NCBI GenBank assembly: GCA_028713125.1
Contig: JAQTOU010000005.1
Location: 62,001 to 126,000 of the forward strand
Direction of reading: 5' to 3'
DNA: 64,000 nt
Origin: Elusimicrobiales bacterium
GTDB taxonomy: Bacteria > Elusimicrobiota > Elusimicrobia > Elusimicrobiales > UBA9959
Of this stretch, positions 1-25,257 are shown one piece after another. Position 1 is the stretch's first letter. Every line of letters begins with the position of its first letter. The notes below the pieces were generated by a model. The model made no database searches, was not told the origin of the DNA, and saw only the letters and a program-made list of their open reading frames with translations. The position numbers were made by a program, and so were the translations under genes.

Positions 1-852
1 TATCTCGTCCCAGCGCTTCAGGGCGTCGCCGATAGGGGAAAGCGGTTTGAGAAAAACATAAGGCAGCTTGAGGCGGGCGTATTCGTCCACTATTTCCCGG
101 GCCCTGCCGAGAGAGGCCCGCGTGACCGTCAGCAGAGCGCTCGGCCCGCCCGGAGGCTCCACCCCGCGCCGCTCCTGGAAGTATTTTATCCATTTCACCG
201 CGGCCGCGTGCGAGTCCCCGCCGGAAAATTTCCTGTTGGCGTTATGCAGGTCCGCCGGCCCGTCCAGGGAAGTGCAGAGGGAAATATCGTTCCCGATAAT
301 AAAATCGGCCTTCGCCTTGTCCATCAGGCTGAAATTCGAAACCAGCGCCAGGGCCAGGTCCTTCCCCGTCTTCTCCGCCTTTTTCCGCGCGTAAACCGCG
401 GTTTCCTTCAGCGCCGCCCAGTTCACAAGCGGCTCCCCGCCCTGGAACTCTATCGTCAGGCCTTTCACCGGCGCGCTGAAAGCCAGGTCCACCGCGCGGC
501 GGGCCGTCGCCGGGCTCATATTTCTGCCCGCGCCCGAACCGGCCTGGCAATAAACGCAGCTATGATTGCATTTCTCGGTCAGGACCATTATATGCAGCCC
601 CGGGCCCATGCGAAGGTATTCGTTTGAATCCCGCCACTCCGTAAAAATAGAATCGAAATCAAGGCGCGAGCGCAAAAGCCCCGCCCTCTGCAGCCCTTCA
701 AAACCCGCTCCGCTCTTAAGCTTCCCCTCGGAGAAAAGCCTGAACTCGGCCGGCTTAAGCAGCGCCCAGCCTCCCAGATCGCCGGTAACCAGCACCCCCG
801 CCTTAAGGCGGCGCCAGTTAAAATAAGCCGGAAGATCGAGCTGTTTTTTCAT
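1..852 (-). CDS. HxsB-like radical SAM/SPASM maturase (partial, 3' end outside window)
   Basis: The ATG lies at 852 on the minus strand and the frame stays open to position 1, giving 284 residues of an unfinished protein. A radical SAM cluster motif CNHSCVYC is at residues 95-102, preceded by GPGLHIMV and followed by the EFQGGEPL motif. A short variable N-terminal domain (residues 1-80) comes first. The same order and motifs recur in the full-length gene at 21484-22947, so the two are paralogues. This arrangement is typical of HxsB, the His-Xaa-Ser system maturase, which modifies a peptide substrate by radical chemistry. The C-terminal SPASM cluster domain should lie to the left of the window. 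The substrate is not visible. Seen: motifs and paralogy. Inferred: HxsB assignment. Confidence 0.8.
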   Translation of the reverse strand, partial: MKKQLDLPAYFNWRRLKAGVLVTGDLGGWALLKPAEFRLFSEGKLKSGAGFEGLQRAGLLRSRLDFDSIFTEWRDSNEYLRMGPGLHIMVLTEKCNHSCVYCQAGSGAGRNMSPATARRAVDLAFSAPVKGLTIEFQGGEPLVNWAALKETAVYARKKAEKTGKDLALALVSNFSLMDKAKADFIIGNDISLCTSLDGPADLHNANRKFSGGDSHAAAVKWIKYFQERRGVEPPGGPSALLTVTRASLGRAREIVDEYARLKLPYVFLKPLSPIGDALKRWDEI

Positions 853-9037: not shown

Positions 9038-10319
9038 AAAAACCTACCAGCTTCCATACCTGCTGGGCGTCTTCCTGGGCCTCAACGCCGTCAGCGACGC
9101 CTGCCTCATGGTGGACGGAGCGAACTGCGTCATGGTCAAAGCCGACCTGATAGCCGGCAACCACGACCTCTTCTCCACGCTTTTATCCGAATCCGGCCGC
9201 CACCGCATAATCTGCACGATGTGGACGCCAGTAAATCCCCCCAAGAACCCCGAGAAGAAGCTCGGCGCTATGCTTAACAGCGTGGCCGGCTCCGGGCAGT
9301 TCGGCGCGGTGCTCCTGACCGGCCTGCCTTACTGCTGGCTGGCCGGGATGGACTATGACGGAGTGGCGCGGGCCGTCTCTTCCAAGGCGCCGGTGGCCGC
9401 TATTCCGGCCAAGTCGATGGATTCGGACTGGCTGGAAGGCTATGACCTGACCCTGGAGGCGCTGGCGCGCGCCCTGCCGGAGAAGCGGCCCGGAAAACGC
9501 GCGAAAAACAAAGTCGCCCTGATCGGCTATATGTTCGACAGGAACGAAAGCGACCATGCGGCAAATTTGAAAGAACTTACAAGGCTGCTGAAAATTTCTG
9601 GCCTAGATGTTGTTTCCATCTGGCCTTCCGGCGGCGCCGTCGCGGAACTGGCGCGGGTGTCCGAAGCCTCCCTTATCGTTTCCCTGCCCTACGGCAGGAA
9701 AGCCGCCAAAACCCTGGCCCGTAAATACGGCTGCGAACTCCTCGAGACCGGCCTGCCTATGGGGCTGAAAGGGACCTCCTCGTGGCTGGCCGCCGTCCGC
9801 CGCGCCGCCGGCCTGCCCGGCGGCCTGCCTCAGGAAGTTTTACAGGAAGAGCGGGAAGCCGCAAAGGCCATAGCCCCGGCGCTTCGCGCAATACTCCACA
9901 AAAAGCTCATGTTCGCCGGGGACCCTTACCTTTATTCCGCTTTCGCTTCTTTCGCGGCCGAGCTGTGCGCGACCCTGCCCCTGGTTTTCCTGGATTCTTC
10001 CAGGCGCCCGCTCGGCGCCGGGGCCGCGGAGGGAACGGTTCTTTTCGCTCCGTCCACCGAGGACGCCAAAGCCGCCAGGAAAGACCTTTCGCGCTATCGC
10101 TCGCCGAACCTTGCCGTAGTTAATTCTTTCGCGCTTACCGAGGGTTTCGCCGACGGGCTCCCTTTCGTGGAATTCGGTTTCCCGTCTTACGGCCACCACT
10201 GCCTTCTCGACGAGCCGTATTTCGGGTTCAGCGGCGCCCGGTCCCTGGCCTCGCGCATGCTGAATTCCCTGCAGACAAGGAGCAAGGCCAGCTCTTCGGG
10301 AGCGGACCGCTCGGCGTAA
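9006..10319 (+). CDS. NifK/NifD-like nitrogenase component 1 subunit
   Basis: The protein has 437 residues. It resembles the second subunit of nitrogenase-like reductases. N-terminal Cys33 and Cys41 (DACLMVDGANC) and Cys110 (TGLPYCW) fall where bridging-cluster cysteines sit in NifK/BchB-type proteins. Rossmann-like segments follow, such as KNKVALIGYMFDRNE and the PYGRKAAKTLA region. The start overlaps the end of the HD fusion by 32 nt, so the two are translationally coupled and probably form one complex. Length is shorter than NifK (about 520) and close to the compact nitrogenase-like proteins. The ApbE gene follows after 27 nt. The family is fairly sure; the reaction is unknown. Confidence 0.75.
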   Translation: MKDITSQKAFEKTYQLPYLLGVFLGLNAVSDACLMVDGANCVMVKADLIAGNHDLFSTLLSESGRHRIICTMWTPVNPPKNPEKKLGAMLNSVAGSGQFGAVLLTGLPYCWLAGMDYDGVARAVSSKAPVAAIPAKSMDSDWLEGYDLTLEALARALPEKRPGKRAKNKVALIGYMFDRNESDHAANLKELTRLLKISGLDVVSIWPSGGAVAELARVSEASLIVSLPYGRKAAKTLARKYGCELLETGLPMGLKGTSSWLAAVRRAAGLPGGLPQEVLQEEREAAKAIAPALRAILHKKLMFAGDPYLYSAFASFAAELCATLPLVFLDSSRRPLGAGAAEGTVLFAPSTEDAKAARKDLSRYRSPNLAVVNSFALTEGFADGLPFVEFGFPSYGHHCLLDEPYFGFSGARSLASRMLNSLQTRSKASSSGADRSA

Positions 10320-13086: not shown

Positions 13087-14337
13087 CTACTTTAGCAATG
13101 AAAGGTATCTTTTTAGAGCTGAAATGAAGATCGCCGTATCTTGGGGGGTGTTGTAAGCAAAAAAGGAAATTCTTATTGTTTCGCGGTAGCCGGAGGCGAG
13201 GCAGGCTAGGTCGGCGCAGTGACGGCCGGTGCGCACGGCTATGAAGCGGCCTTTAAGCTGCTGGTTCAGGAAGATATTGAAATCGGGGACCGAGAAGCCT
13301 TTTTTAACGGGGACGATGGAGATGAGGGAACCCTCAAGAAGATCTTCCCGCGCGCCGAGGACGCGCACGCCTTTAACGCCGGCCAGGCTTTTAAGCGCAT
13401 CGCCCACTAAAGCTGAAACGTGGGCGCGGATATTTTCGAAGCCGCACTTTTCAAGCCGGGTAATAGCCGCCGCCAGGCCCGCCGCGCCGGAGCAGTTCTG
13501 CACCCCGGCTTCGAAGGCCTGGTAGTTGCCGAGGTATTTAACTTTATAGCGGCCGCCCGAAAGCGTAACGTCCGCCACCGTGCCGCCGCCCACCCGCCAG
13601 GGGCGGAGCTTGCCCAGCAGGTCCCTCTTAACGTACAGGGCGCCGGTAGAGTACGGGGCGCCCAGCTTGTGCCCGGAGAAAGCGCAGGCGTCGGCGCCGT
13701 AAATAGCGCCACTGCCGCCGTGGGTAGGCGCGTACTGCGCGTCGTCCGCGAAAAGATAAGCGCCGGCGGCATGCGCCAGCTCCGCGGCGGCGGCGATATC
13801 GGTCCGGCCGCCGAAAATATTAGAGGCGTGCGTAAAGCAGACCAGGGCGGTCTTTGAGCCCAGCATTTTGCGGCAGGCTTCCAGGTCCGGCTTGAAGTTC
13901 TTAAGCGGGATCATCCGCAGCTTTATCTTCCCGGCGGAAGCCAGCCTTTCGAAAGGCAGGAAAACGGCATTATGCTCAACGGGGGAGAGGATGACCTCGT
14001 TCCTTTCAGGCGTGAACGGGAAAGAATTGGCCAGCAGGTTCACCGCGTCCGTCACGCCGGCCGTGAAAATTATTTCCTCGGGCGAGCCCGCGCCCATGAA
14101 AGAGGCCACCCGGGAGCGCGCCGCGTAGAAATTCTCCTCCATGGCCGCGGCCAGGGCGTGCGAGGACCGCTTTCCGCCGCAGCCGCCCAGCTCCAGCATA
14201 TGGCGGCGCTGCTCGTCGGCGGCGCAGCGCAGCTTGAGCACGGTGCAGGCGCTGTCCAGGTAGACCAGTTTCCGGCCCTCGAAGCGCCCGCCCAGCGCGG
14301 GGAATTCCTTTTTCAGAGCGGCAATTTTTTCTTTCAT
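13087..14337 (-). CDS. SufS/CsdA-like cysteine desulfurase (class V aminotransferase)
   Basis: The protein has 416 residues. The PLP lysine is K224 in SGHKLGAPYSTG and the persulfide-carrying cysteine is C374 in RTGRHCADL, the typical SufS pattern. It would release sulfur from cysteine for iron-sulfur clusters or for direct sulfur insertion. It is the last gene of the radical SAM run and overlaps the preceding gene by 4 nt (ATGA). The nearby enzymes together would need many 4Fe-4S clusters, so a dedicated sulfur donor makes sense. A role as a C-S lyase acting on a modified product is possible. No SufE or SufBCD genes are adjacent. Confidence 0.82.
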   Translation of the reverse strand: MKEKIAALKKEFPALGGRFEGRKLVYLDSACTVLKLRCAADEQRRHMLELGGCGGKRSSHALAAAMEENFYAARSRVASFMGAGSPEEIIFTAGVTDAVNLLANSFPFTPERNEVILSPVEHNAVFLPFERLASAGKIKLRMIPLKNFKPDLEACRKMLGSKTALVCFTHASNIFGGRTDIAAAAELAHAAGAYLFADDAQYAPTHGGSGAIYGADACAFSGHKLGAPYSTGALYVKRDLLGKLRPWRVGGGTVADVTLSGGRYKVKYLGNYQAFEAGVQNCSGAAGLAAAITRLEKCGFENIRAHVSALVGDALKSLAGVKGVRVLGAREDLLEGSLISIVPVKKGFSVPDFNIFLNQQLKGRFIAVRTGRHCADLACLASGYRETIRISFFAYNTPQDTAIFISALKRYLSLLK

Positions 14338-15179
14338 AAGGCCTTGTGAACGGCGATATAATCTTTTCTCGGGCCCGGGCAGAGTTCAATGAACCGGCAG
14401 CCCCGGCAGGCCGGAACCTGCTTTTTCTCTTCCAGGTGCGGCCCTTTATGACCGTCCCTCATTTTTACCATATCCACGTTCAGCGCGTAAAATTCGCCGA
14501 GGAAGCAGGGCGGGATATGGTCCACTTCACAGCGTATTTCATTCTCGCGGCAGATCGAAAGCGCTTTTTCCAGGTAGGGCTTTACCGCCGCGTATTTGGG
14601 CAGGTATTTCGCCCCGCCGGCGCGGCCGAGGCCTTTTATATAGCTGAACTGCAGCCAGGCGACGCCCTTGAGGTTTTTCGCGGCATAAGCGGCGAAGGCG
14701 GGCAATTCTTTATAATTCAGCTCGCTGATGACATGCGTCAGCCTTACCGCGCCCCCGGCCCCGATAAGCCGCTTAACTCCGGCGAGCCTTTTTTCAAAGC
14801 CGCCGGCCGCGCGCGTTATCTTAAAGTCGAGGTCCGGGGTTGACGCCGGGAAATTCACATTAAAATAACCGTTCGCCGCGTTAAGGGCGCGGACGATGTT
14901 TTTTATTTCCCCGCCGGGCAGTTCAGCCGCGGCCAGCGCGTTCGTCTGCAGTTCCGCCCGCCTGCCGAGTTTCTTGACCGCCGCAAGCAGAAGACAGAGA
15001 TTCCTGGCCCCGGCCAGCAGCGGCTCGCCGCCCGAGATCTGCACCAGGCCGGGCGGCATGAGAGTTATTTCTTTCAGCCAGCCTTTAAGCGTAACCCCTT
15101 CGTCTCCTCCGTCTTCGGCCGGATAAGAGCAGAACACGCAGCGCTGGTTGCATTTGCGGAAAAGGTGTATTAAAGCCAT
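14334..15179 (-). CDS. Radical SAM protein (array member 5)
   Basis: The protein has 281 residues. It begins almost directly with the cluster motif CNQRCVFC (C10, C14, C17), followed by ISGGEPLL. It ends with an auxiliary cysteine motif CRGCRFIELCPGPRKDY, which is shared in form with its neighbours (CxxC-x5-C-G/P, then an aromatic residue). An isolated PPCFLGEFY segment lies before it. This fits a shortened SPASM/twitch domain carrying one extra cluster. It overlaps the genes on both sides (4 nt with SufS, 10 nt with 15170-16363), so it is part of a tightly coupled operon. Substrate unknown, probably a peptide or a small cofactor precursor. Confidence 0.8.
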   Translation of the reverse strand: MALIHLFRKCNQRCVFCSYPAEDGGDEGVTLKGWLKEITLMPPGLVQISGGEPLLAGARNLCLLLAAVKKLGRRAELQTNALAAAELPGGEIKNIVRALNAANGYFNVNFPASTPDLDFKITRAAGGFEKRLAGVKRLIGAGGAVRLTHVISELNYKELPAFAAYAAKNLKGVAWLQFSYIKGLGRAGGAKYLPKYAAVKPYLEKALSICRENEIRCEVDHIPPCFLGEFYALNVDMVKMRDGHKGPHLEEKKQVPACRGCRFIELCPGPRKDYIAVHKAL

Positions 15180-16363
15180 TTCTTAAGCTCCGCGTAGGGT
15201 TTGGCCAGGGACCAGCGGTAGATGCCGCGCTCGAAGCTGCTTTTTACCATACCCTTGGAAATTAGGCTGGCGGCCGAAGTCATTACGGCATTTCCGTCGG
15301 AACAGTCGCGGCACAGCACGATATTTCTGGAAAGAGAGAGCACTTCTTTGGTAGAGGCGCCATCTTTCAGGCGCAGGATCTCCACCAGGCATTTCTCATT
15401 GTCGGAAAGATACACGCGTCCGGAGGCCGGCGCTTTTTTAACTGCGCCGTTTTTCCCGACAGGCTTGAAGCCGCCCCAGCCGAAATTAGCTATATAATGC
15501 TCGTCCGCGCCGCGGCATTTTTTATTCAGCGCGCAGGCGCGGCAGGGCTTCCCCTTTACCTTGGCCGCGTCGGCGTTAGCGTCCAGGTCGGTCCTTCCCC
15601 CAAGCGGGTCCGTCACCAGCGTATTAAAATGGTCGAGGCCGATAGAAAGTTTTTCGCGGCCCTTAAGAAAGCAGGGCGGGGTGTTCAGAAAAAGTATCTC
15701 CCTCGGCAGGCCGGCGGCTTCCATGGTCCGCACGGCTTCCTCGAAATAAGGTTCGCAGTCGGAAAGGCTTATCCCCAGCTTTTTGGCGTTAAGAGCCATG
15801 GCCCCGTTATAGACCGGGTAAATTATCACGAAATTGGTGATGCCGCGCCCGAGGTAGAATTTTATTATCTCCGGCAGGCGCCTGTAGTTAAGCCGGTTCA
15901 CCAGGATATTGGTCCCAAGCCGTATCTTAAGTTTCCGCAGATTTTCCAGGCCCGCGAGCGCTTTCTTCAAAGCGCCGGGAACCCCTACCAGCCCGTCGTG
16001 GTCCGCCGCTTTATCGGTAGTGAAAGAGAATTTGCAGAAAGTCAGACCGGCTTTCACCAGCGCGCGGCAGAAAGCGGGGTCCGCCAGCTTTATCCCGTTG
16101 GTCTGCACGCGGATGAACCGGAAACCCACGGATCTGCCGAGCGCTATCGCCTTGAGGATATCCGGGCATATCAGCGGTTCCCCGCCGGTGAAGCCGAGGC
16201 GGCGGTAGCCGTTCTTATAGGCGGAATAGATATTGCGCGCGATAGCGTCGAAAGGGGCGTTAAGCGATTTGTCGAAATCGCCCTGGGAGCAAAAGCCGCA
16301 CTTCGCATTGCAGTTATAGTTGAGGATAAGCTCGTAACATTTGCCGGCGCCTTCTTCTTTCAT
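15170..16363 (-). CDS. Radical SAM protein with C-terminal winged-helix-like domain (array member 4)
   Basis: The protein has 397 residues. The cluster motif is CNAKCGFC (C18, C22, C25), followed by FTGGEPLI. An auxiliary motif CRACALNKKCRGADEHY lies near residue 275, then a GxxxFKPV tail like those of its neighbours. After this tail come about 85 extra residues (from about 310) that resemble a small winged-helix or peptide-recognition domain (LVEILRLKDGASTKEVLSL and following). This addition is missing from the paralogues. It overlaps the flanking genes by 10 and 4 nt. The extra domain may recognise a leader peptide; that is inference. Confidence 0.78.
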   Translation of the reverse strand: MKEEGAGKCYELILNYNCNAKCGFCSQGDFDKSLNAPFDAIARNIYSAYKNGYRRLGFTGGEPLICPDILKAIALGRSVGFRFIRVQTNGIKLADPAFCRALVKAGLTFCKFSFTTDKAADHDGLVGVPGALKKALAGLENLRKLKIRLGTNILVNRLNYRRLPEIIKFYLGRGITNFVIIYPVYNGAMALNAKKLGISLSDCEPYFEEAVRTMEAAGLPREILFLNTPPCFLKGREKLSIGLDHFNTLVTDPLGGRTDLDANADAAKVKGKPCRACALNKKCRGADEHYIANFGWGGFKPVGKNGAVKKAPASGRVYLSDNEKCLVEILRLKDGASTKEVLSLSRNIVLCRDCSDGNAVMTSAASLISKGMVKSSFERGIYRWSLAKPYAELKKWL

Positions 16364-17286
16364 TTTTTGACCGCCTTCAGCTCGGCGTCGCCGTATTGCC
16401 TGAGGTATTCCACCCAGAGCCCCTCGCAGGCGGAGTAAAGGCGGCAGCCGCGGCAGCGGGCCGTTTTTTTGCGGGCCACTTTGGAGCGCGAACCTGTAGC
16501 GTCTTTATTGAAAAAATCCGGGGCCCAGTGCTCGGTCAGGAAGATCTCGCGCTCGTTAATTTCGCTTATCTGGCCCAGGCAGTCCTTGAAATGGCAGAGC
16601 GGCACATAGCGGGCCTTCCATTGGTCCAGCCCGGCGGCCCGCCCGAGGGCAAGCGCCCGGCGCATATGCGGCGCGGCTTTGGAGATGCGCGGCACAAGTC
16701 CCTTAAAATCGTTCCTGGCCCCGCCGTAATTCGGGTCCACGAAGATATATTCCACGTTGCGTATCCGGTTCTTTATATAGAACCTGGCGAGCGCGGACAG
16801 GCCGGCCATGTTCTGCTTCACCACGGTAGTATTCCCGCTGATCCGCTCGAAACCGAGGGCGCGCAAATTCTTCAGGCCTTTTTTCAGCTGCGCGAAACTC
16901 CCCGGCGCGCGGGTGAGCGCGTCATGCGTACGGGCATCGGGACCGTGCACCGAGAAAATCAGGGAATCGATGCCGGAGCGGATTATCCGGCGCGCGGCCG
17001 CGGGGTCGGAGAAAACCCGGCCATTGGTGGCGCAGGTGACCTGGGATATGCCGAGCTTTTTCGCGGCGGCCACGACGCGGTTGAAGTCGGGGCGTATCGT
17101 CGCCTCGCCGCCTATGATCTCCAGTATATAAGCGCCCTTGGCTTTTGCCCGCAGGACCTCGCGCAGCAGCTCCGCCGTGGTCTTCTGCGGATAAGCGCGC
17201 TTATCCGCGTCGATGCAGAAAGCGCAGTTATTATTGCAGGCGTACCCCGTAAAGAGGACGATCTTAAGTTTTTTTTCTTCTTTCAT
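16360..17286 (-). CDS. Radical SAM protein (array member 3)
   Basis: The protein has 308 residues. The cluster motif is CNNNCAFC (C17, C21, C24). The GGE motif appears as IIGGEATI. The auxiliary motif CRGCRLYSACEGLWVEY precedes the tail GDAELKAVKK. It is a paralogue of the genes at 18441-19337 and 19337-20254, sharing length, auxiliary cysteines and tail. It overlaps the downstream gene by 4 nt and starts 6 nt after the A24-like gene ends. Substrate unknown. Confidence 0.8.
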   Translation of the reverse strand: MKEEKKLKIVLFTGYACNNNCAFCIDADKRAYPQKTTAELLREVLRAKAKGAYILEIIGGEATIRPDFNRVVAAAKKLGISQVTCATNGRVFSDPAAARRIIRSGIDSLIFSVHGPDARTHDALTRAPGSFAQLKKGLKNLRALGFERISGNTTVVKQNMAGLSALARFYIKNRIRNVEYIFVDPNYGGARNDFKGLVPRISKAAPHMRRALALGRAAGLDQWKARYVPLCHFKDCLGQISEINEREIFLTEHWAPDFFNKDATGSRSKVARKKTARCRGCRLYSACEGLWVEYLRQYGDAELKAVKK

Positions 17287-17292
17287 GCGATG

Positions 17293-18444
17293 CTATCTGA
17301 AAAAGCCCACTATATTCCTGTCCAGCACGAGCAGGAGGGCCGCGCCGGCGAAGATCCAGAGGGCGAAGGGGCGGCCTTTGATGATCTCCACCTTAGGGTC
17401 CGGAACCGTCAGTTTCTTCATCCACTCTTTGACCGCCGCCACCTGCTCTTCCGTCAGGCCGTCCTTGAAGCAATCCTCGAACAGCTCCGTATAATCCGGG
17501 TTGGCCTTGATAGAGCGGCAGGCCTTGGTGGAAAGCAGGAGGCCGGGCTCCAGTTCGGCGGCAGTCAGGTACTGGGTGTCCTTCCTTTCCATCAGGAATT
17601 CAAGCATGAACCGCCCGAAGAAAAGAAGCAGTCCGAGCTTCAGCAGATTGGTCCCGGCCGTGACGGCCATAAGCCAGAGCCGGTCGGGGAACATAAAATA
17701 GCCGGCGAAGAAATAAGCCAGGTAGCAGGCCGAGCTGATATAGGTCCAGTTACGGCTGCGGAACATTTCGCCCACTTTGTCCCAGAGTATGAACAAGAAG
17801 AAGAAAAGCAGGTCCGCCCGCGAAAAGAAATGGCTTATAAAACCGCGGGCCTCCATCGAGAGCACCTGCTGGAGCAGGAACAGGAAGCCGATATTCAGAG
17901 CCGCGGCGGCTATCGCGAACATATTCTTGCCGCCGGCCATGTCCGCAAGCCGCTTTTTCACGTCCTGCCACATCTCGGAGAAAAAGTCCGACGGGGAGGC
18001 CGAGGCGAAACCCGAGGCGATATGGCTGCCCACGGCCCAGAGAGCGGCCGAGACGAAAATATTTATCAGCAGGCTCAGGAAAAGGAAGGCCGGGAAATTT
18101 TTCAGGTAGGGGTTGGCCAGCGGCAGGGCCGCCGAGACCAGAATGAAGAACTTCGCGTCCCCGGCTGGCCAGACCTCGGCGTACCAGAGTATTATCCCGG
18201 CCAGCGCAGACCAGAAGAAATGCTGGCAGAAGAGCCAGTAAAAATTCCCGACCAGGAAACTCTGCGTGCGGCCGGCATAACCCATCCAGGTATAAAGCCC
18301 GAACACGGCCAGCCCCGCCGCAAGCAGCCTGAAACCGTCCACTATGCTCGCATTGGTGATCTTGCGCGTGGCCATATCCCTGCTTACCACCGAGACGGCC
18401 CAGGCGGTGAACCCGGCGAGGAAGACCATCGAGATATACTTCAT
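17293..18444 (-). CDS. Membrane protein resembling A24 prepilin peptidase, with C-terminal extension
   Basis: The protein has 383 residues with about eight hydrophobic segments. The first third resembles an A24 aspartic peptidase: D23 in SRDMATRKITN (usual form DxxxxxIPN) and D96 in PAGDAKFF (usual form GxGDxK), about 70 residues apart as in the family. These enzymes cleave prepilin-type leaders inside the cytoplasmic membrane. The remaining 230 residues form further membrane segments plus a soluble region near the C-terminus and are not recognised. It lies between radical SAM genes and overlaps the upstream one by 4 nt. It may process or export the modified product. The A24 call rests on two short motifs. 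Confidence 0.55.
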   Translation of the reverse strand: MKYISMVFLAGFTAWAVSVVSRDMATRKITNASIVDGFRLLAAGLAVFGLYTWMGYAGRTQSFLVGNFYWLFCQHFFWSALAGIILWYAEVWPAGDAKFFILVSAALPLANPYLKNFPAFLFLSLLINIFVSAALWAVGSHIASGFASASPSDFFSEMWQDVKKRLADMAGGKNMFAIAAAALNIGFLFLLQQVLSMEARGFISHFFSRADLLFFFLFILWDKVGEMFRSRNWTYISSACYLAYFFAGYFMFPDRLWLMAVTAGTNLLKLGLLLFFGRFMLEFLMERKDTQYLTAAELEPGLLLSTKACRSIKANPDYTELFEDCFKDGLTEEQVAAVKEWMKKLTVPDPKVEIIKGRPFALWIFAGAALLLVLDRNIVGFFR

Positions 18445-19337
18445 CTTTTCACCGGCTTCAGTTCGGCGTCACCGAACATTTTTTCATATTCAAGCATCAG
18501 CCCCAGGCATTTTTTCTTAAGGACGCAGCGCCCGCACTTTTTCGCGGGGTAAACCCTGTCTTCAGGGGGCAGCGTTATCCAGCAGAGCGGCCGCAGCTCC
18601 TTGCGGACCAGGCAAAGCGGGAAATGGTAAAGCCGGAAATCCTTGAAACGCCGGATAAGCGGGAGGCAGCCGCCCAATATCGCGGCCGATTCCGACAGTT
18701 TAAGGGCCAGTTTCCGGTGGTTCGCCAGCGACATCCCCTCTATCTCGTAATGTATAGCCGTCACGCTGTAGGCCGAGGTATCGGGGAAAGTCTTAAGCAG
18801 GAATTCAAGCGTTTTCGGAAGTGCCGCCGCGCTTTTTTTGTGGATAACGAGCCGTATCTCCACCCGGGGGCCTCCCGGCGCGGAAAGAAGGTTCTTCAGC
18901 CCTTTGACGGTCTGGGAGAAGCTGTTTTTTACGCCGGCGACAGCGTCGTGGATCCTGGCCGAAGGACCGTGCAGCGCTATCGCCACGGAAAAAGGCGGCT
19001 TGGCCACGGCGCGGAATTTTTCCGCGAACCCGGCATTGCCGAAGCGGCGGCCGTTAGAAAGCAGCGTTATCGGCACGCCGGGCAGGCGCGCCCTGAAATA
19101 GGAAAGAAGCTTGAAAAAATCCGGGTGCAGGGTCGGCTCGCCGCCGGTCAGGCTGACGAAGTCGGCGCTTCCGTCGTTCTTCAGGTAGACCGGCCCCAGC
19201 CCCTTGAGGTAGCGCTCAAGCTTCCCGATCTGGCCTTTAAGCGCGTAATGAGCTCCGGGCTGCCGCGCGAAAGCGGGCAGATTGGTGCACATCACGCATT
19301 TATTATTGCACTTGTTCCAGAAGGGGATATCGGGCAT
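18441..19337 (-). CDS. Radical SAM protein (array member 2)
   Basis: The protein has 298 residues. The cluster motif is CNNKCVMC (C10, C14, C17), followed by SLTGGEPTL. The auxiliary motif CGRCVLKKKCLGLMLEY and the tail GDAELKPVKR match its paralogues. It overlaps the upstream gene by 1 nt and the A24-like gene by 4 nt, so the order in the operon is fixed and expression is coupled. Substrate unknown. Confidence 0.8.
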   Translation of the reverse strand: MPDIPFWNKCNNKCVMCTNLPAFARQPGAHYALKGQIGKLERYLKGLGPVYLKNDGSADFVSLTGGEPTLHPDFFKLLSYFRARLPGVPITLLSNGRRFGNAGFAEKFRAVAKPPFSVAIALHGPSARIHDAVAGVKNSFSQTVKGLKNLLSAPGGPRVEIRLVIHKKSAAALPKTLEFLLKTFPDTSAYSVTAIHYEIEGMSLANHRKLALKLSESAAILGGCLPLIRRFKDFRLYHFPLCLVRKELRPLCWITLPPEDRVYPAKKCGRCVLKKKCLGLMLEYEKMFGDAELKPVKR

Positions 19338-20254
19338 CAGCGTTTAGCGGCGGGCGCCTTTCCTTTTACCGGCTTGAATTCGTCCCAGCCGTAGAGTCCC
19401 GGGTATTCGCGCCAGGGGCCTTCGCAAAGCTTGAACCAGCGGCAGGGGCGGCATTCTTTGCGCTTCGCCTTCCCCTCGTCGCGGCGGTAATCGCCGTAAC
19501 TCTCGATGTAAAAATCGGCGTCGGAGACCGGGCCTTCGGGAATAACGCGCTCGGCCACGCAGTCCTCGTAGCCCTTCATCAGGCAGAAGGGGATCGCCTC
19601 CGTATAGCCGGCCACTCCGCCTTCGCGGCCGACGTCCAGCGCTTTTTTCAAATAAGGCATCACCGCGGTTTTTTTGGGCGCGAGCGTCTTCCGGTTTTCC
19701 CAGGCGGAGCCGACCAGGTGGACGTAAGCGAACTGGAACTGGTTGACCTTGAGCCGCACCAGCAGCTTCGCCAGCCCGGGGAGGTCTTTATAGTTCACCG
19801 AAGTGATGACGGAATTGGTCAGCACGTACATGCCGAGCTTCTTGCAGTTAAGGATGCCGCTGACCACTTCTTTAAAGCTGCCTTTGGCCCGAGTAAGTTT
19901 TTCGTGGATCTCCGGCGTGGAGCCGTGCAGGGAGGGCCCCATCTCGGTCACGCCGGCGTTTTTGAGCTCGAGGCAGTAATCGTAATAGGCGAAGCGGCGC
20001 CCGTTGGTCTGCACCTGCACGCTTTCATAGCCCATCGCCCTGGCGGCCCGCACCGCGGCCGGGAGGTCCGGGTGCAGCGTGGGCTCTCCGCCGGTGAAGA
20101 CGGCGGCGCTTACGCCCTGCTTTTTAGCCCGGGCCAGGTCGGCTTTGATCTGCTTCAGGCTTTTCCCGCCCACGCGGCTGCGCTTGCCGCCCTGCGCGCA
20201 GAAATCGCACATATTGTTGCAGTTGAAGCCTATTTTTATGTCGATGCGTTTCAC
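19337..20254 (-). CDS. Radical SAM protein (array member 1)
   Basis: The protein has 305 residues. The cluster motif is CNNMCDFC (C12, C16, C19), followed by FTGGEPTLH. The auxiliary motif is CRPCRWFKLCEGPWREY and the tail is GWDEFKPVKG. The FTGGEPTLHPDL block and the overall length tie it closely to the gene at 18441-19337. The exported cysteine-rich protein ends 7 nt upstream. Substrate unknown. Confidence 0.8.
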   Translation of the reverse strand: MKRIDIKIGFNCNNMCDFCAQGGKRSRVGGKSLKQIKADLARAKKQGVSAAVFTGGEPTLHPDLPAAVRAARAMGYESVQVQTNGRRFAYYDYCLELKNAGVTEMGPSLHGSTPEIHEKLTRAKGSFKEVVSGILNCKKLGMYVLTNSVITSVNYKDLPGLAKLLVRLKVNQFQFAYVHLVGSAWENRKTLAPKKTAVMPYLKKALDVGREGGVAGYTEAIPFCLMKGYEDCVAERVIPEGPVSDADFYIESYGDYRRDEGKAKRKECRPCRWFKLCEGPWREYPGLYGWDEFKPVKGKAPAAKR

Positions 20255-20261
20255 GTGGAGT

Positions 20262-21113
20262 TTATTTGGGCGCGTCCGTCTTCCCCATCATCTTGCGGAC
20301 CCTGGTGTTTATCTCTTCAGTGATCTTTTCGTTCTCTTTCCGCCGCCTCTCCGCCTCGGCTTTTTCCTCTTCGGCTTTTTTGAAGACCGCCTTCACCTCT
20401 TCAGGAGAGTAGCCGGCGTAGCCGCCCGCCCTTTTCTGGGCCTTGGCCAGGTAGGCGCAGTACGAGGAGCCCAGTTTCGCGAGCAGGGCGGAGCAGGAAG
20501 CCTCCGACTTGGAGAGATAGGCGGAACAAAGCGCCTCCTGGCCGGTCGGGCAGCCGCCGGCGGCGCCGGCCGCGCTCGACACTCCCAGGTAATATTGCCC
20601 GCATTTATAATTAGGACTTTTCAGCAGCGGCACATCGGTCCTCCCGCCCCGGCTTTCACCAGGCAGGTAGTTGCAGAAGGACGGGTCGCGGCGCGCCAGC
20701 CCGACGCAGGAAAGATACTTCCCCAGCAGTTCGTAAGTATCCTCATTGTCGGTATTGGAGAAAGAGCCGTAAGGCGCGAGGTAGCCCCAGATCCGCCCGT
20801 GTGCGGAAAAGATCTCGTTCAGGGAACCGCCCTTGCAGGGGCCGCTTTCATAGAGCTTGTTCTTTATGGTCGGAAGCGCGCCGTAAGTGGAAGGAGCGCC
20901 GGACCTGGAAATTTCCGCCGAGAAATTCTCGGGTATGGAATAAAGAGTGGCGCCGGCCGGGAGGGGCGCGGGAACGGGAAGAGGGGCGCCGTCCGGCGCC
21001 GGCTGCGCGGCATGGAAACCGGCGCTCTCAAAGGAAGCTTTACGCTGCTGGTACTTGATTCCGGCGGCGAAAGCGAGCAGCAGCGCGGCGGCGAGGATCA
21101 ACCATTTTTTCAT
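20262..21113 (-). CDS. Exported cysteine-rich protein of unknown function
   Basis: The protein has 283 residues and is not recognised. An N-terminal hydrophobic segment (MKKWLILAAALLLAFAAGI) acts as signal or anchor. Eight cysteines are spread between about residues 90 and 225, with a repeated pattern of Cys-Xaa-Xaa-Tyr-Leu: FCNYL, LCSAYL, SCSALL and YCAYL. The last 50 residues are a highly charged, probably coiled-coil tail rich in Glu, Lys and Arg. It lies inside the radical SAM run, directly upstream of array member 1 and downstream of the HxsD-like gene. It is therefore a reasonable candidate substrate or partner of the maturases. No His-Xaa-Ser repeats are present. Confidence 0.55.
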   Translation of the reverse strand: MKKWLILAAALLLAFAAGIKYQQRKASFESAGFHAAQPAPDGAPLPVPAPLPAGATLYSIPENFSAEISRSGAPSTYGALPTIKNKLYESGPCKGGSLNEIFSAHGRIWGYLAPYGSFSNTDNEDTYELLGKYLSCVGLARRDPSFCNYLPGESRGGRTDVPLLKSPNYKCGQYYLGVSSAAGAAGGCPTGQEALCSAYLSKSEASCSALLAKLGSSYCAYLAKAQKRAGGYAGYSPEEVKAVFKKAEEEKAEAERRRKENEKITEEINTRVRKMMGKTDAPK

Positions 21114-21160: not shown

Positions 21161-21487
21161 TTATCCGCGCTTGCCAGCTTTCTTTTTAGCCCCGGCGGCG
21201 GCGCTTTGCTCCACCCCCGCGGCTGAAAGCAGGGCTTTGGTGGCTATGATGGAAGCGATCTTGAAATTCCTGCGGCTGAGGTCTATCCGGCACTGCTGGT
21301 TCAGGACTTCATTGCAGAATTCGCCCGCGGCGTCGCCGCCCGCGGAAGCTTCAACGATGAACCCGCCGGCAGCTTTCGCGACGCGCAATCCGCGCCCCTC
21401 GAAAACCGCGGCCGCTAGGTCCACGGCTTCGGCGCAGTAGATCCCGCCGCTTAAAAAGATGTCACCGGCTTTTTTTACAGGCTTCAT
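21161..21487 (-). CDS. HxsD-like small protein (second copy)
   Basis: The protein has 108 residues from the ATG at 21487, which overlaps the stop of the HxsB-like gene by 4 nt (ATGA). A longer in-frame start at 21676 lies inside that gene and was rejected. The middle part (IYCAEAVDLAAAVFEG, then GEFCNEVLNQQCRID) resembles the pattern of HxsD, the small partner protein of His-Xaa-Ser maturation systems, with a helix, a short strand segment and an NE-x3-Q motif. The Lys-rich tail is not conserved. It may act as a recognition or chaperone subunit for the maturase. Assignment is tentative. Confidence 0.5.
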   Translation of the reverse strand: MKPVKKAGDIFLSGGIYCAEAVDLAAAVFEGRGLRVAKAAGGFIVEASAGGDAAGEFCNEVLNQQCRIDLSRRNFKIASIIATKALLSAAGVEQSAAAGAKKKAGKRG

Positions 21488-22947
21488 TTTTGCACCCACC
21501 CTTTCAGGATCTTTGCGCTGGCCGGCTTCTTGAGCAGGGCGAAAAGCGCGTCGAACATGCCCATGGAAAGAGCGCAGCGCCCGCTGGACGGCATATCGCC
21601 CCACAGGGAGCCCTGAGTCTCGTAGTTGTAGACGGGGCAGACGCCGCAGTAAGGTTTGTAGACGCAGCGGGAGCATTGCGGCTGGGACTCCAGGTTGGAG
21701 GCCGCGGCGCAGGCCCTCGAGGCCGGCGCAAGCATCACTTTGCGGTAGGAATCTTTCAGGACGTTCCCTATCTTGAAGAGGTCGTCCCCCTCCCAGCCCA
21801 CCATGCGGCCCTCGTCGCAGGAATAGAGGTCGCCGTTATAGTTGTAAGCCACCTGGCCTATGGCCGCGCCGCAGGGGCAGCGCATGTCCAGGTAGCCGGG
21901 GTCGCTGCCGTTGATTATCTTCTCTAGCATTATCACGGCGTGCCGCTCGCGGATCTTCTTTCCGGCGGCGTTCAGCTTCAGGATGTAATTCAGGGTATTG
22001 CGGTAGAAGACCGCGAACTCCCCGGCGGAATAGCCGATCTTCGGCCAGAGGTTCTTGGCGTAGCCTATCGGGGCCAGCGGCCGCGCGAAAATATCGGTAA
22101 GGCCGTTGCGCAGGTATTCGTCCACGATCTCTTTTTCCCGGCCGAGCGAATATTTCGACACGGTAAGCAGCGCGCTCGGGTTGAAAGTCTTGTACTCCGG
22201 GACCTGCTTGGCGGCGCGGCCGATGAAGTACTTAAGCCACTTCACGGTATCCGCGTGGGAATTCCCGCCGGTAAAGATCCTGTTCTTATTGTGCAGGTCG
22301 GCCGGGCCGTCCAGGGAAGTGCAGACCGAAACCTCGTTCTCCACCAGGAAGCGGGCTTTCTCTTCCGTCATCAGGCTGAAATTGGAGACCAGGGCCAGCC
22401 GGACCTCCCGGCCGAGCTCTTTGGCGCGGCGGCGGGCATAAAGCACGGAGTCTTTGAGCGTGTCCCAGTTAAGAAGCGGCTCGCCGCCCTGGAACTCTAT
22501 CGTGATGCCGGGATTGGTGCTCTTTAGGGCGAAATCAACGCTCTTGCGGGCCACAGCGCGGCTCATATCGGTGCGCCCGCCCGCGGCGCCAAGCGCCCCG
22601 GACTGGCAATAGAGGCATTTGTGGTTGCAGCGCAGCGTCATGACCAAAATGTGAAGGCCGGGGCCGGCGCCGAGGAAAGCGTTCTTTTTGGAGCAGGCGG
22701 CGGCGAAACCTTCGAAATCCGTCATCTCGCGCACGAAACCCTTGGCCGCAAGCTCGCCGTACAGCTTCTCGCCCGAGCCAAGGCGCCCTGCGGAGAAGCG
22801 GGCGAAATCGGCTTTGGAGACGGCGGCGGTGAAGCCGGCGTCGTTGGAAAGCAGGACGGAGCCGTCCGCCATCCGCCGAAAGGTGAAGTAAGGGAGACCT
22901 GCTATGCGCGGCTTACCGTTTTTTTTTGCGGCCGTTTTTGGAGTCAT
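21484..22947 (-). CDS. HxsB-like radical SAM/SPASM maturase
   Basis: The protein has 487 residues. An N-terminal recognition-like domain (1-90, with LLSNDAGF) is followed by GPGLHILVMTLRCNHKCLYC with cluster cysteines C107, C111 and C114. TIEFQGGEPLLNW and CTSLDGPADLHNKNR come next. A C-terminal SPASM-type motif (CSRCVYKPYCGVCPVYNY) binds further clusters. This order matches HxsB of the His-Xaa-Ser system, which acts on a ribosomal peptide. A small HxsD-like gene lies on each side, overlapping by 35 nt upstream and 4 nt downstream. HxsC and the repeat protein HxsA are not recognised nearby. A paralogue lies at 1-852. Confidence 0.8.
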   Translation of the reverse strand: MTPKTAAKKNGKPRIAGLPYFTFRRMADGSVLLSNDAGFTAAVSKADFARFSAGRLGSGEKLYGELAAKGFVREMTDFEGFAAACSKKNAFLGAGPGLHILVMTLRCNHKCLYCQSGALGAAGGRTDMSRAVARKSVDFALKSTNPGITIEFQGGEPLLNWDTLKDSVLYARRRAKELGREVRLALVSNFSLMTEEKARFLVENEVSVCTSLDGPADLHNKNRIFTGGNSHADTVKWLKYFIGRAAKQVPEYKTFNPSALLTVSKYSLGREKEIVDEYLRNGLTDIFARPLAPIGYAKNLWPKIGYSAGEFAVFYRNTLNYILKLNAAGKKIRERHAVIMLEKIINGSDPGYLDMRCPCGAAIGQVAYNYNGDLYSCDEGRMVGWEGDDLFKIGNVLKDSYRKVMLAPASRACAAASNLESQPQCSRCVYKPYCGVCPVYNYETQGSLWGDMPSSGRCALSMGMFDALFALLKKPASAKILKGWVQK

Positions 22948-23383
22948 ACTTTTCTTCCCATGTGCTGGTGATCCCCAGGGGGTCGGCCGAAGCGCCCTTG
23001 GCGGTCTCCGCCTTTATTTCGCCCTCTATCTGGTTTATCAGGTCGTTAAGTTCTTTTTCCTGCTGGGGCGTAAGGCCGGAATCGTCCTTTTCGGGAGGCT
23101 TGGGCTGGTAGTTCATGGCCTTGAGCAGCAGGAACTCCCGCAGCTCCCTGTTCTCGGAGGAAACGCGCTCGCGGAGCTTCTCGTCCTCGAGCTCGCCCTG
23201 GAAATGTTTCGCCAGGCCCGCCGCTTTAGCCCCGGGTTTAGGGGAGAGGTCCACCTGCACCTTGTCGCCGGGCAGCGGTTTAATAAAAGCGTAGGCCAGG
23301 CCGCCCAGGGAATGGGCGGCGTAGCGGATAGAATCAAGACTGTATTTTTTCAGGCTGACCTGGATAGAAATATTTTTTGGCAA
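22913..23383 (-). CDS. HxsD-like small protein (first copy)
   Basis: The protein has 156 residues. The first 90 (SLKKYSLDSIRYAAHSLGG, then VDLSPKPG and LEDEKLRERV) fit the HxsD pattern of an alpha/beta domain followed by an acidic-Leu-Arg motif. The last 60 residues are charged and low in complexity, ending in Lys/Arg. It overlaps the HxsB-like gene by 35 nt, so the products are made together. It differs clearly from the other HxsD-like protein in length and tail, which suggests two distinct partners for one maturase. Assignment is by pattern only. Confidence 0.5.
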   Translation of the reverse strand: MPKNISIQVSLKKYSLDSIRYAAHSLGGLAYAFIKPLPGDKVQVDLSPKPGAKAAGLAKHFQGELEDEKLRERVSSENRELREFLLLKAMNYQPKPPEKDDSGLTPQQEKELNDLINQIEGEIKAETAKGASADPLGITSTWEEKYDSKNGRKKKR

Positions 23384-23442: not shown

Positions 23443-24165
23443 CTAGAATTTGCAGCAGACCATGGTTCCGCCCCAATCTTCGCCCAGCACTATGAACGTG
23501 CCCCAATTGCTGGTGGTGCTGCCGCCGGGCAGGAACCCCGTTACCCTGGCCACGCCGTCGCCCATGAACCCGACCACGCTTTTCCCGCCGGGGCAGTTAA
23601 CCGTGCCGCCGACCCCGTAGCCGACGCGGGTGCACACATTGGTGAAATTCCCCGTCACGTTAAGGTCGCCGTTCACGTCCAGGCGGTCCCAGATGCTGAC
23701 GGAACGGCCGCCGCCTATGCCGCCGGAGCGCCCGAGTATCATCAGGGTATTGAAATTGGAGGCGTTTTCGATGGCCGCATTGCCCCAGGCATTGCCGATG
23801 CCGGTGTGACTGTGCCCGGTATTGTTGAAGTAGAGGTCGGAGTTGGTAAGGTAAGTCTGCCCCTGGCTGGAGCTGCCGGCTACGATCGCATTGCCCGTAA
23901 CGTTGGAATTGCCGAATACATGAAGCTTGCTGGTTGCCGCCCCGTTGCCGACCGATAGATTGCCGCCATCACGGGTAAGAATAGTATTCTGTGTCGTCAG
24001 CAGGCTCACATAGCCGCCGTACGGGGCCGGGTAATAAGTAGTAAGAGTGAGGCTTTCAGAGCCGATAAAGCCGGGATGCCAGCAAATGAAGAACAGGACA
24101 AGCAGGGGAAGCGTGTTTTTTCTGCTGAATTTGATCTTTGCTTTGAGTTCTTCCATAGTTTCCAT
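23443..24165 (-). CDS. Exported structural protein of the SLTLTTYYPAPYG type
   Basis: The protein has 240 residues from the ATG at 24165, behind GGGGG at 5 nt. A longer start at 24276 was rejected because it lacks a ribosome site and displaces the signal sequence. A basic N-terminus and hydrophobic segment are followed by ESLTLTTYYPAPYGGY, a block I know from many exported repetitive proteins of Elusimicrobia-like genomes. Gly/Asn/Ser-rich beta-repeat sequence follows, and then a globular end with VCTRVGYG, VNCPGG and a terminal CCKF. It is probably a surface or pilus-associated protein. It lies 59 nt upstream of the HxsD/HxsB genes and could be a substrate. Function not established. Confidence 0.6.
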   Translation of the reverse strand: METMEELKAKIKFSRKNTLPLLVLFFICWHPGFIGSESLTLTTYYPAPYGGYVSLLTTQNTILTRDGGNLSVGNGAATSKLHVFGNSNVTGNAIVAGSSSQGQTYLTNSDLYFNNTGHSHTGIGNAWGNAAIENASNFNTLMILGRSGGIGGGRSVSIWDRLDVNGDLNVTGNFTNVCTRVGYGVGGTVNCPGGKSVVGFMGDGVARVTGFLPGGSTTSNWGTFIVLGEDWGGTMVCCKF

Positions 24166-24298: not shown

Positions 24299-24691
24299 TT
24301 AGAGGAGGATTACCACAAAAACTGCCTTAAACTTGTCTTCCAGGAAAGCCCTGGCCTCGCCGGCTATCTCGGCAAAGTCCTCGAGGTCCTTTGTGGAGGA
24401 GGAAAGAAAGGCCCCGGAGTCGCGCACGGCCAGGACATAGCCCTGGGCGGGGATCTCTCCCGGGAGGGAGCGGAGGCAGTCGAGCAGGGCGTCCCAGTTG
24501 CCTCCGAAATAGGCCGGGAATCTGAAGGCCGCGGCCAGGGCCGGCATCAGCCCGGCTTTATCCGCGATCTTCGCGCCGTCCACATAAGCGGTAAAAAAAG
24601 CCGGCGGAGGAAATAGTTTTCCTATTTCCTCCGCCGCCGTCCCGCGGGCCCTGAAGTCCAGGAAAAGTCCTTCCTTCCCGGGCAGGCCCAT
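24299..24691 (-). CDS. Barstar-family RNase inhibitor
   Basis: The protein has 130 residues. The motif YFGGNWDALLDCL (residues 61-73) is the barstar signature; D67 and D71 correspond to the acidic residues that plug the barnase active site. It starts 5 nt after the stop of the secreted RNase gene, so the pair is cotranscribed and probably coupled. It should remain in the cytoplasm and protect the cell from RNase that is not yet exported. The family is well recognised. Confidence 0.88.
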   Translation of the reverse strand: MGLPGKEGLFLDFRARGTAAEEIGKLFPPPAFFTAYVDGAKIADKAGLMPALAAAFRFPAYFGGNWDALLDCLRSLPGEIPAQGYVLAVRDSGAFLSSSTKDLEDFAEIAGEARAFLEDKFKAVFVVILL

Positions 24692-24696
24692 CGGTT

Positions 24697-25257
24697 CTAG
24701 TAAACCACCGTCAGCAGTATGAAATGCGCGTAATGGTCGGGCGTGTAATAGATCTTCTCGCCGCCGCCGATTATGATGCGCTCAGAGCCGCGGGCGCTCA
24801 GGTCCGGAGCCACCTGGTAGGTGGTCCCGCCGATCACGACCGTGTGAGGCGCGCTGCCGGTAAGCAGGGTATATTCCTTGTAAAAGCCCTTAGGCTGCAC
24901 GGGCAGGCGGCCTTCTTTATTGCTGAACACCGCGCCGTCCTGCGCATAAGGCAGGTGGACGCCGTTGTAGATGTCGGTAACCAGCTTCATTATCGATTTG
25001 ATGCGGGACGCGTCTTCGATCTTCGGCGTGAAGTCGCGGCCGGGCTTCGGAGAGAGGGCCGCGGCTTTAAAGATAACTTCTTCGGGAGCGGAAGCGGGAA
25101 CGGCGGGAAGCTCCACTAAATTCCTGAATTCGGCGCCGGAAACAAGTTCGCCGAGCGCGGCCGATCTTACGTCGGAGGCGGCATAGGAGGCTAAACCGGA
25201 GAAAGAGAGGACTAGAACGGCCGCAAGCTTCATCCAAAGGCTCTTGTTTTTAAGCAT
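24697..25257 (-). CDS. Secreted barnase-type (N1/T1 family) ribonuclease
   Basis: The protein has 186 residues. A signal peptide ends near ASYAAS. The C-terminal 80 residues match microbial guanyl-preferring RNases: VFSNKEGRLP, then E128 in FYKEYTLLT (general base), R160 with R156 nearby (phosphate binding), and H175 in TPDHYAHF (general acid). These match E73, R83/R87 and H102 of barnase. A spacer of about 75 residues separates signal and RNase. AAGGAA precedes the ATG. With the barstar gene directly downstream this is a toxin/inhibitor pair acting on competitors or scavenging RNA outside the cell. Confidence 0.85.
   Translation of the reverse strand: MLKNKSLWMKLAAVLVLSFSGLASYAASDVRSAALGELVSGAEFRNLVELPAVPASAPEEVIFKAAALSPKPGRDFTPKIEDASRIKSIMKLVTDIYNGVHLPYAQDGAVFSNKEGRLPVQPKGFYKEYTLLTGSAPHTVVIGGTTYQVAPDLSARGSERIIIGGGEKIYYTPDHYAHFILLTVVY

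Follow-up and report, generated by a model that had tools for sequence, protein, structure and literature searches.

Haft and Basu are said to have described the Hxs system of RiPP biosynthesis, to which the family models TIGR03976 to TIGR03979 belong. The name His-Xaa-Ser (Hxs) also appears in PMC9062424, which mentions the system in passing, and the literature searched yielded no paper characterising an Hxs product or HxsD. NCBI models further delineate an HxsA4/HxsC4/HxsD_rel variant (NF038313, NF038332 and NF038315). The triceptide synthases YhhB, HaaB and MscB offer a chemical parallel. These are SPASM radical SAM enzymes that join residues i and i+2, the first being aromatic or His; according to PMC11002830, YhhB and HaaB link the C2 of His to the Cbeta at i+2, and MscB links Phe to the Cbeta of Ser.

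The locus analyzed here lies within a window of 64,000 nucleotides (positions 62001-126000 of contig C7) in a 3.48-Mb Elusimicrobiales genome. It shares with the Hxs system an HxsB above the curated cut-off, an HxsA-type peptide with HxS repeats, an HxsC homologue, and an HxsD homologue immediately preceding HxsB, an arrangement known from annotated plasmid loci. Unlike that system, it has another full-length HxsD following HxsB, separates the substrate from the HxsDs by a split, and includes the proteins TYYP and AccP together with several extra HxsC-like enzymes, while its HxsC and HxsD homologues fall below the curated cut-offs. The HxsA4/HxsC4/HxsD_rel variant provides a second point of comparison: HxsA4 exceeds its cut-off, radical SAM proteins of the locus match HxsC4 best, and pairs of HxsD-like proteins per HxsB are found in other phyla too, there as one long HxsD plus one short HxsD_rel. 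Here, however, both HxsDs are longer and flank HxsB, and the HxsC4-like proteins remain far below the cut-off of 500. In contrast to the triceptide synthases, HxsB constitutes its own family and is associated with long tandem repeats rather than single motifs and with helper HxsDs. We consider the locus to be a variant Hxs RiPP system with a split operon, in which both halves likely build one exported, His-x-Ser crosslinked peptide, and assign this reading a probability of roughly 0.7.

The central maturase, HxsB2 (21484..22947, minus strand), is a radical SAM/SPASM protein that scores 480.1 bits against TIGR03978, above the NCBI cut-off of 370. The first-pass annotation had placed a second HxsB at the window edge, and this gene proved complete. 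Its 5' part occupies positions 1..852 (minus strand), it extends 554 bases left of position 1, and the whole gene (HxsB1, C7:61446-62852) reaches 431.8 bits in a profile search against the same cut-off of 370. Inspection of the genes left of position 1 revealed the rest of HxsB1, then AccP1 (C7:60184-61149), then HxsA4. The radical SAM and SPASM cysteines are invariant across 14 aligned HxsBs. Among 79 loci of a genome collection, the nearest HxsB2 relatives occur in bacterium isolate SKS1.bin115 (98% identity), Elusimicrobia bacterium NC_groundwater_1302 (91%) and GWC2_64_44 (82%), and the closest named relatives come mostly from Elusimicrobia MAGs. The best PDB relative of HxsB by sequence is 5wgg (E 6e-37), which we take to be the SCIFF maturase CteB carrying its own RRE; weak matches to models of YhhB and FxsB were also obtained.

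HxsB2 is flanked by HxsD1 upstream and HxsD2 downstream, so that the arrangement initially described, a single HxsB between two distinct HxsD-like proteins, is borne out. HxsD1 (22913..23383, minus strand, 156 aa) is a divergent HxsD with a C-terminal tail and matches TIGR03976 at E 5.5e-7 (29.9 bits). HxsD2 (21161..21487, minus strand, 108 aa) matches the same profile at E 0.0011 (19.3 bits). Both scores lie below the curated cut-off of 50, and the two window proteins are for this reason termed homologues. The existence of HxsD2 stood, whereas its originally proposed span of 21161-21676 did not: the first 63 codons of that frame overlap HxsB in a different frame, and the probable start lies near 21487, as in close relatives. 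With these boundaries, HxsD1 overlaps HxsB2 by 35 nt and HxsB2 overlaps HxsD2 by 4 nt. No protein of the genome other than these two, which both adjoin HxsB2, matches TIGR03976 at E<=1. Relatives were sought in the 79 genome-collection loci and 60 fetched regions, and the profile was matched at E<=0.01 by 46 of 47 aligned HxsD1 relatives and by 29 of 33 aligned HxsD2 relatives. Profile-to-profile comparison aligned HxsD1 with HxsD2 over 94 columns (probability 99.4, E 2e-21). Judged from these sequence comparisons, the assignment of both proteins as HxsD homologues is firm at the family level. The HxsD_rel model NF038315 was matched at E<=0.01 by 16 of the 33 HxsD2 relatives; the longer HxsD2 frame scored 13.7 bits, below the cut-off of 41, and the model was not among the matches of the 108-aa form at E<=0.01.

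Structural models of HxsD1 and HxsD2 share a predicted beta-alpha-beta-beta-alpha-alpha topology. The extra tail of HxsD1 carries a DPLGIxxTWEEKY motif, in which Trp142 is invariant in 47/47 relatives, and may serve as a docking peptide. The W motif of this tail, DPLGI..(T/P)WEEKY, is absent from four annotated plasmid HxsDs. Structural searches with both models returned weak matches and no clear fold. Foldseek pointed to an Rpb11/AC19 type fold (E 0.01) and a VIA search to Pcc1 (Z 7.2, 68 residues, 2.4 A rmsd); these resemblances to dimer-forming folds may reflect merely a common arrangement. A PqqD-like winged helix, or RRE, was considered as well, and none appeared among the structural matches listed, which does not exclude an RRE. 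The HxsD1 profile found no match among PDB sequences (best E 0.11).

The candidate substrate, HxsA4 (C7:59841-60167), contains an (S-H-G)n repeat and scores 70.6 bits against NF038313, above the cut-off of 55. Its gene is located 1.8 kb to the left of position 1, in a region invisible to the first-pass annotation, which had reported no recognisable HxsA and had suggested that the substrate might be something else. That suggestion is not supported: this repeat protein clears its cut-off and is encoded next to HxsB1, and in most sampled relatives of the family it adjoins the HxsD1-HxsB-HxsD2 (D-B-D) unit. An alternative substrate was considered and rejected, since HxsA4 is the sole HxS-repeat protein of the genome above the NF038313 cut-off; the one other match is weak (16.6 bits, contig C15).

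HxsA4 comprises a charged N-terminus, the sequence FLSSEEGK, a hydrophobic stretch, and in-phase HxS units that continue almost to the end. In a set of 62 distinct HxsA4s (E<1e-15, de-duplicated by the last 60 residues), the longest in-phase HxS run ranges from 3 to 36 units, with a median of 14, and the central residue is Gly at 720 positions, Ala at 77 and Ser at 55, others being fewer. Repeat-end tails across these proteins fall into RGGWC (26), GQW/GSW/GAW (19), GSY (11) and other forms (6). A strict signal-peptidase I pattern occurs in 39/62 HxsA4s compared with 21/62 reversed control segments, and a loose pattern matched 62/62 and hence offers little proof; export via signal peptidase is weakly supported. 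Export is also plausible because annotated HxsA and HxsA2 peptides likewise start with a hydrophobic stretch, as judged by eye. A Flp-type pilin leader was considered and not adopted, as 10 leaders gave no such Pfam match.

The first-pass annotation had likewise recognised no HxsC, and in this it was mistaken. The protein at 18441..19337 (minus strand), in the same gene run as HxsB2, matches TIGR03977 at E 4.7e-44 and covers profile positions 33-288 of 292; its 150 bits do not reach the cut-off of 267.9. BLAST comparison with five annotated HxsCs gave 23-30% identity (E 6e-22 to 1e-29), and the annotated HxsCs are matched better by this protein than by the five other radical SAM proteins compared. 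An HxsC4/HxsC-like radical SAM protein precedes it (19337..20254, minus strand; NF038332 144 bits against a cut-off of 500, TIGR03977 94 bits), and three further radical SAM proteins, weakly HxsC/HxsC4-like and each with a CxxxCxxC motif, are encoded on the minus strand at 14334-15179, 15170-16363 and 16360-17286. The final gene of the run encodes a SufS-type cysteine desulfurase (13087..14337, minus strand; TIGR01979 270 bits, cut-off 475; gap of -4 nt). From TYYP (24156) to SufS (13087), the run looks like a single transcription unit, since its twelve genes all point the same way and are spaced by -35 to 59 nt.

The same run encodes a membrane protein (17293..18444, minus strand) that is possibly related to A24 prepilin peptidases. 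Its Asp23 and GlyAsp (95-96) are invariant among 16 proteins, and at E<=1 a match to PF01478 was obtained for 7 of 16 family members (best 2.9e-6) but not for the protein of the window, which has no PDB match either. The protein also bears an AGDAKF motif. The literature searched contained no paper joining Elusimicrobia, radical SAM and pilin.

Relatives clarify how the locus may have acquired its layout. In the family of this bacterium (f1), the usual gene order is TYYP-HxsD1-HxsB-HxsD2-AccP-HxsA4, as at loci L093, L100, L102 and L104, and HxsA4 lies just downstream of D-B-D in most sampled f1 genomes. D-B-D was found in 27/28 sampled genomes after correction and in 25/28 by script: two script misses (G107 and G114) were cut at region edges, whereas loci L135 and L172, whose contigs have matching lengths, show D-B-D, and one genome, G156, truly lacks HxsD2. 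These 28 genomes were drawn from the 55 f1 genomes with HxsB, mostly for an HxsB on a long contig. Possession of two HxsDs is a genuine, almost fixed trait of f1. In the HxsB tree, the HxsB1 clade (support 1.00), whose members have no adjoining HxsD and mostly accompany HxsA4, is nested inside the D-B-D HxsB clade (0.99). In the AccP tree, the AccP1 clade (1.00) is sister to the group containing AccP2 (0.95). Because the two trees agree, the HxsB-AccP-HxsA4 part was apparently duplicated in the lineage of the window, and the HxsD-bearing copy apparently lost HxsA4 later. One genome (G140) combines a complete operon with an additional HxsB1-AccP1-HxsA4 copy, as would be expected of an intermediate. 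The HxsDs may have been copied along and lost again, or may have been left out of the duplication. The unusual layout would thus arise because the duplicated copies kept different pieces, HxsA4 in one and both HxsDs in the other.

Under the split-operon interpretation, the ancestral unit would have been TYYP-HxsD1-HxsB-HxsD2-AccP-HxsA4, as relatives show. The substrate-keeping half would be HxsB1-AccP1-HxsA4 at the left edge of the window, and the HxsD-keeping half TYYP-HxsD1-HxsB2-HxsD2-AccP2, followed by the run of HxsC-like radical SAM genes. We infer that HxsB1 and HxsB2 both act on the single HxsA4; complementary halves predict two HxsBs acting on one peptide. HxsB, together with the HxsC-like enzymes, would crosslink each His of the repeat with the Ser at i+2, and the products would most likely be three-residue cyclophanes like those of triceptides. 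One His-Ser link per H-x-S is the simplest expectation because triceptide enzymes join residues i and i+2. HxsD1 and HxsD2 would be small partner subunits of HxsB, perhaps forming a heterodimer, and an HxsB bracketed by two nearly fixed HxsD paralogues provides a handle on the role of HxsD. A point against this reading is that the HxsB1 clade exists without an adjoining HxsD, so that HxsD may be unneeded in cis. The peptide would then be exported and its leader cut by signal peptidase or, as a lead only, by the A24-like membrane protein of the run. Counting against the split-Hxs explanation, HxsD1, HxsD2 and the HxsC homologue of the window all score below the NCBI curated cut-offs.

The distance of about 22 kb between HxsA4 and HxsD1-HxsB2-HxsD2 means that HxsB2 could also have another target. 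The HxsB2/HxsD1/HxsD2 half might have been re-targeted to neighboring TYYP or AccP2, leaving HxsB1 alone to handle HxsA4, a scenario we consider unlikely. TYYP (23443..24156, minus strand; start codon chosen from relatives and coding score) has the look of an exported protein; it contains a YYPAPYGGY motif and, at the C-terminus, CysCys. It is single in the window genome and precedes HxsD1 in most sampled f1 loci. A YYPxPxGxY motif near the N-terminus and four invariant Cys are common to 16 aligned relatives, and CysCys falls within the last 20 residues in 57/57 distinct TYYPs. AccP2 (20262..21113, minus strand), an uncharacterised Cys-rich paralogue of AccP1 with a hydrophobic N-terminus and no match in Pfam or NCBIfam, sits directly downstream of HxsD2. 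These positions would suit a new substrate, as would the absence of HxsA4 from the HxsB2 locus here and in other split genomes. However, TYYP relatives occur in 118/340 genomes of the phylum, sometimes in several copies and sometimes without HxsB, so TYYP is not Hxs-specific and its candidacy as a dedicated substrate is weakened. Genomes with a single operon carry TYYP and AccP beside HxsA4, which makes them partners there rather than replacements, and neither protein contains an HxS repeat. No paper on the YYPAPYG motif was found in the literature searched.

The proposal that HxsD2 is vestigial or serves some other purpose, leaving the system with one HxsD as usual, receives little credence from us. 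HxsD2 lacks an HxsD1-type tail, has the lower TIGR03976 score, and is missing from G156, yet it is kept in the other 27 of the 28 sampled f1 genomes, retains the 4-nt overlap with HxsB and preserves a conserved core, EFxNEALNQQCR. That the D-B-D half of the window is a decaying, functionless leftover is hardly credible: no substrate gene of its own adjoins it, but none of its genes is disrupted, their packing is tight, the catalytic Cys are conserved, and the seven further genomes in the sample that show this split all retain D-B-D.

Across the phylum, HxsB is present in 92/340 genomes (E<=1e-60) and HxsA4 in 91/340 (E<=1e-4); comparison of the lists by hand placed both in 87, that is, in 87/92 of the HxsB genomes. 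Outside f1, D-B-D occurs in 4/15 sampled genomes. Among 94 HxsB ORFs (loci L113-L191), 32 show D-B-D; the upstream side alone carries two HxsD-like genes in 11 cases and one in 21, and the remaining 30 ORFs, many of them extra HxsB paralogues, lack a nearby HxsD. The two-upstream form pairs a long HxsD with a short HxsD_rel, the latter exceeding the NF038315 cut-off in 9/10 cases, and is found in MAGs labeled Spirochaetes, Deltaproteobacteria and Oligoflexales, among others. Since this form occurs in other phyla, the pairing of two HxsD-like proteins with HxsB is wider than f1, and longer HxsDs flanking HxsB are the special form of f1.

Between the two Hxs halves lies a pair of nitrogenase-like genes on the plus strand. 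The first (6512-9037) encodes an 841-aa protein in which a NifH-type domain is fused to a component-1-like domain (PF00142, PF00148 and NCBIfam matches), and the second (9006-10319) a NifD/K-like, second component-1-like protein (PF00148 and NCBIfam). A 2020 study of nitrogenase paralogues reportedly found nitrogenase-like genes in groundwater Elusimicrobia alongside many radical SAM genes, and the pair presumably corresponds to that paralogue. In a comparison by hand, 45/46 genomes with a NifD-like relative (E<=1e-40) also carried HxsB. The NifD-like relative shared the HxsB contig in at least 22/45 genomes and lay within 20 kb in at least 19/45, against a roughly estimated chance expectation of about 2; G224, which has no HxsB, was left out, distance in G230 was measured to HxsA4, NifD-like matches were incomplete for some genomes, and some HxsBs are missing from the distances. 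On this rough reckoning, nitrogenase-like genes near Hxs are commoner than chance, with a co-occurrence count inflated by shared ancestry, and their proximity to HxsB offers a lead on their role. A unified pathway that joins the nitrogenase-like pair to both Hxs halves and the five HxsC-like radical SAM enzymes is a long shot; in it, an HxsD1/HxsD2 heterodimer would present the long HxS-repeat peptide to several radical SAM enzymes, and the nitrogenase-like reductase would take part in maturation or in metal or cofactor loading. We know of no nitrogenase-like enzyme in any RiPP pathway. An ApbE gene follows the nitrogenase-like pair.

Further genes surround the two halves. To the left of the window, C7 17-59 kb, with genes labeled by eye from their sequences, is dense in additional radical SAM genes, of which some begin with a B12-binding-like region, and also contains sugar-epimerase-like and polysaccharide deacetylase-like genes. 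Directly upstream of TYYP, a secreted ribonuclease (PF00545) and a barstar (PF01337) form a pair at 24299-25257 on the minus strand, and many of the f1 relatives sampled likewise have this pair next to their Hxs genes.
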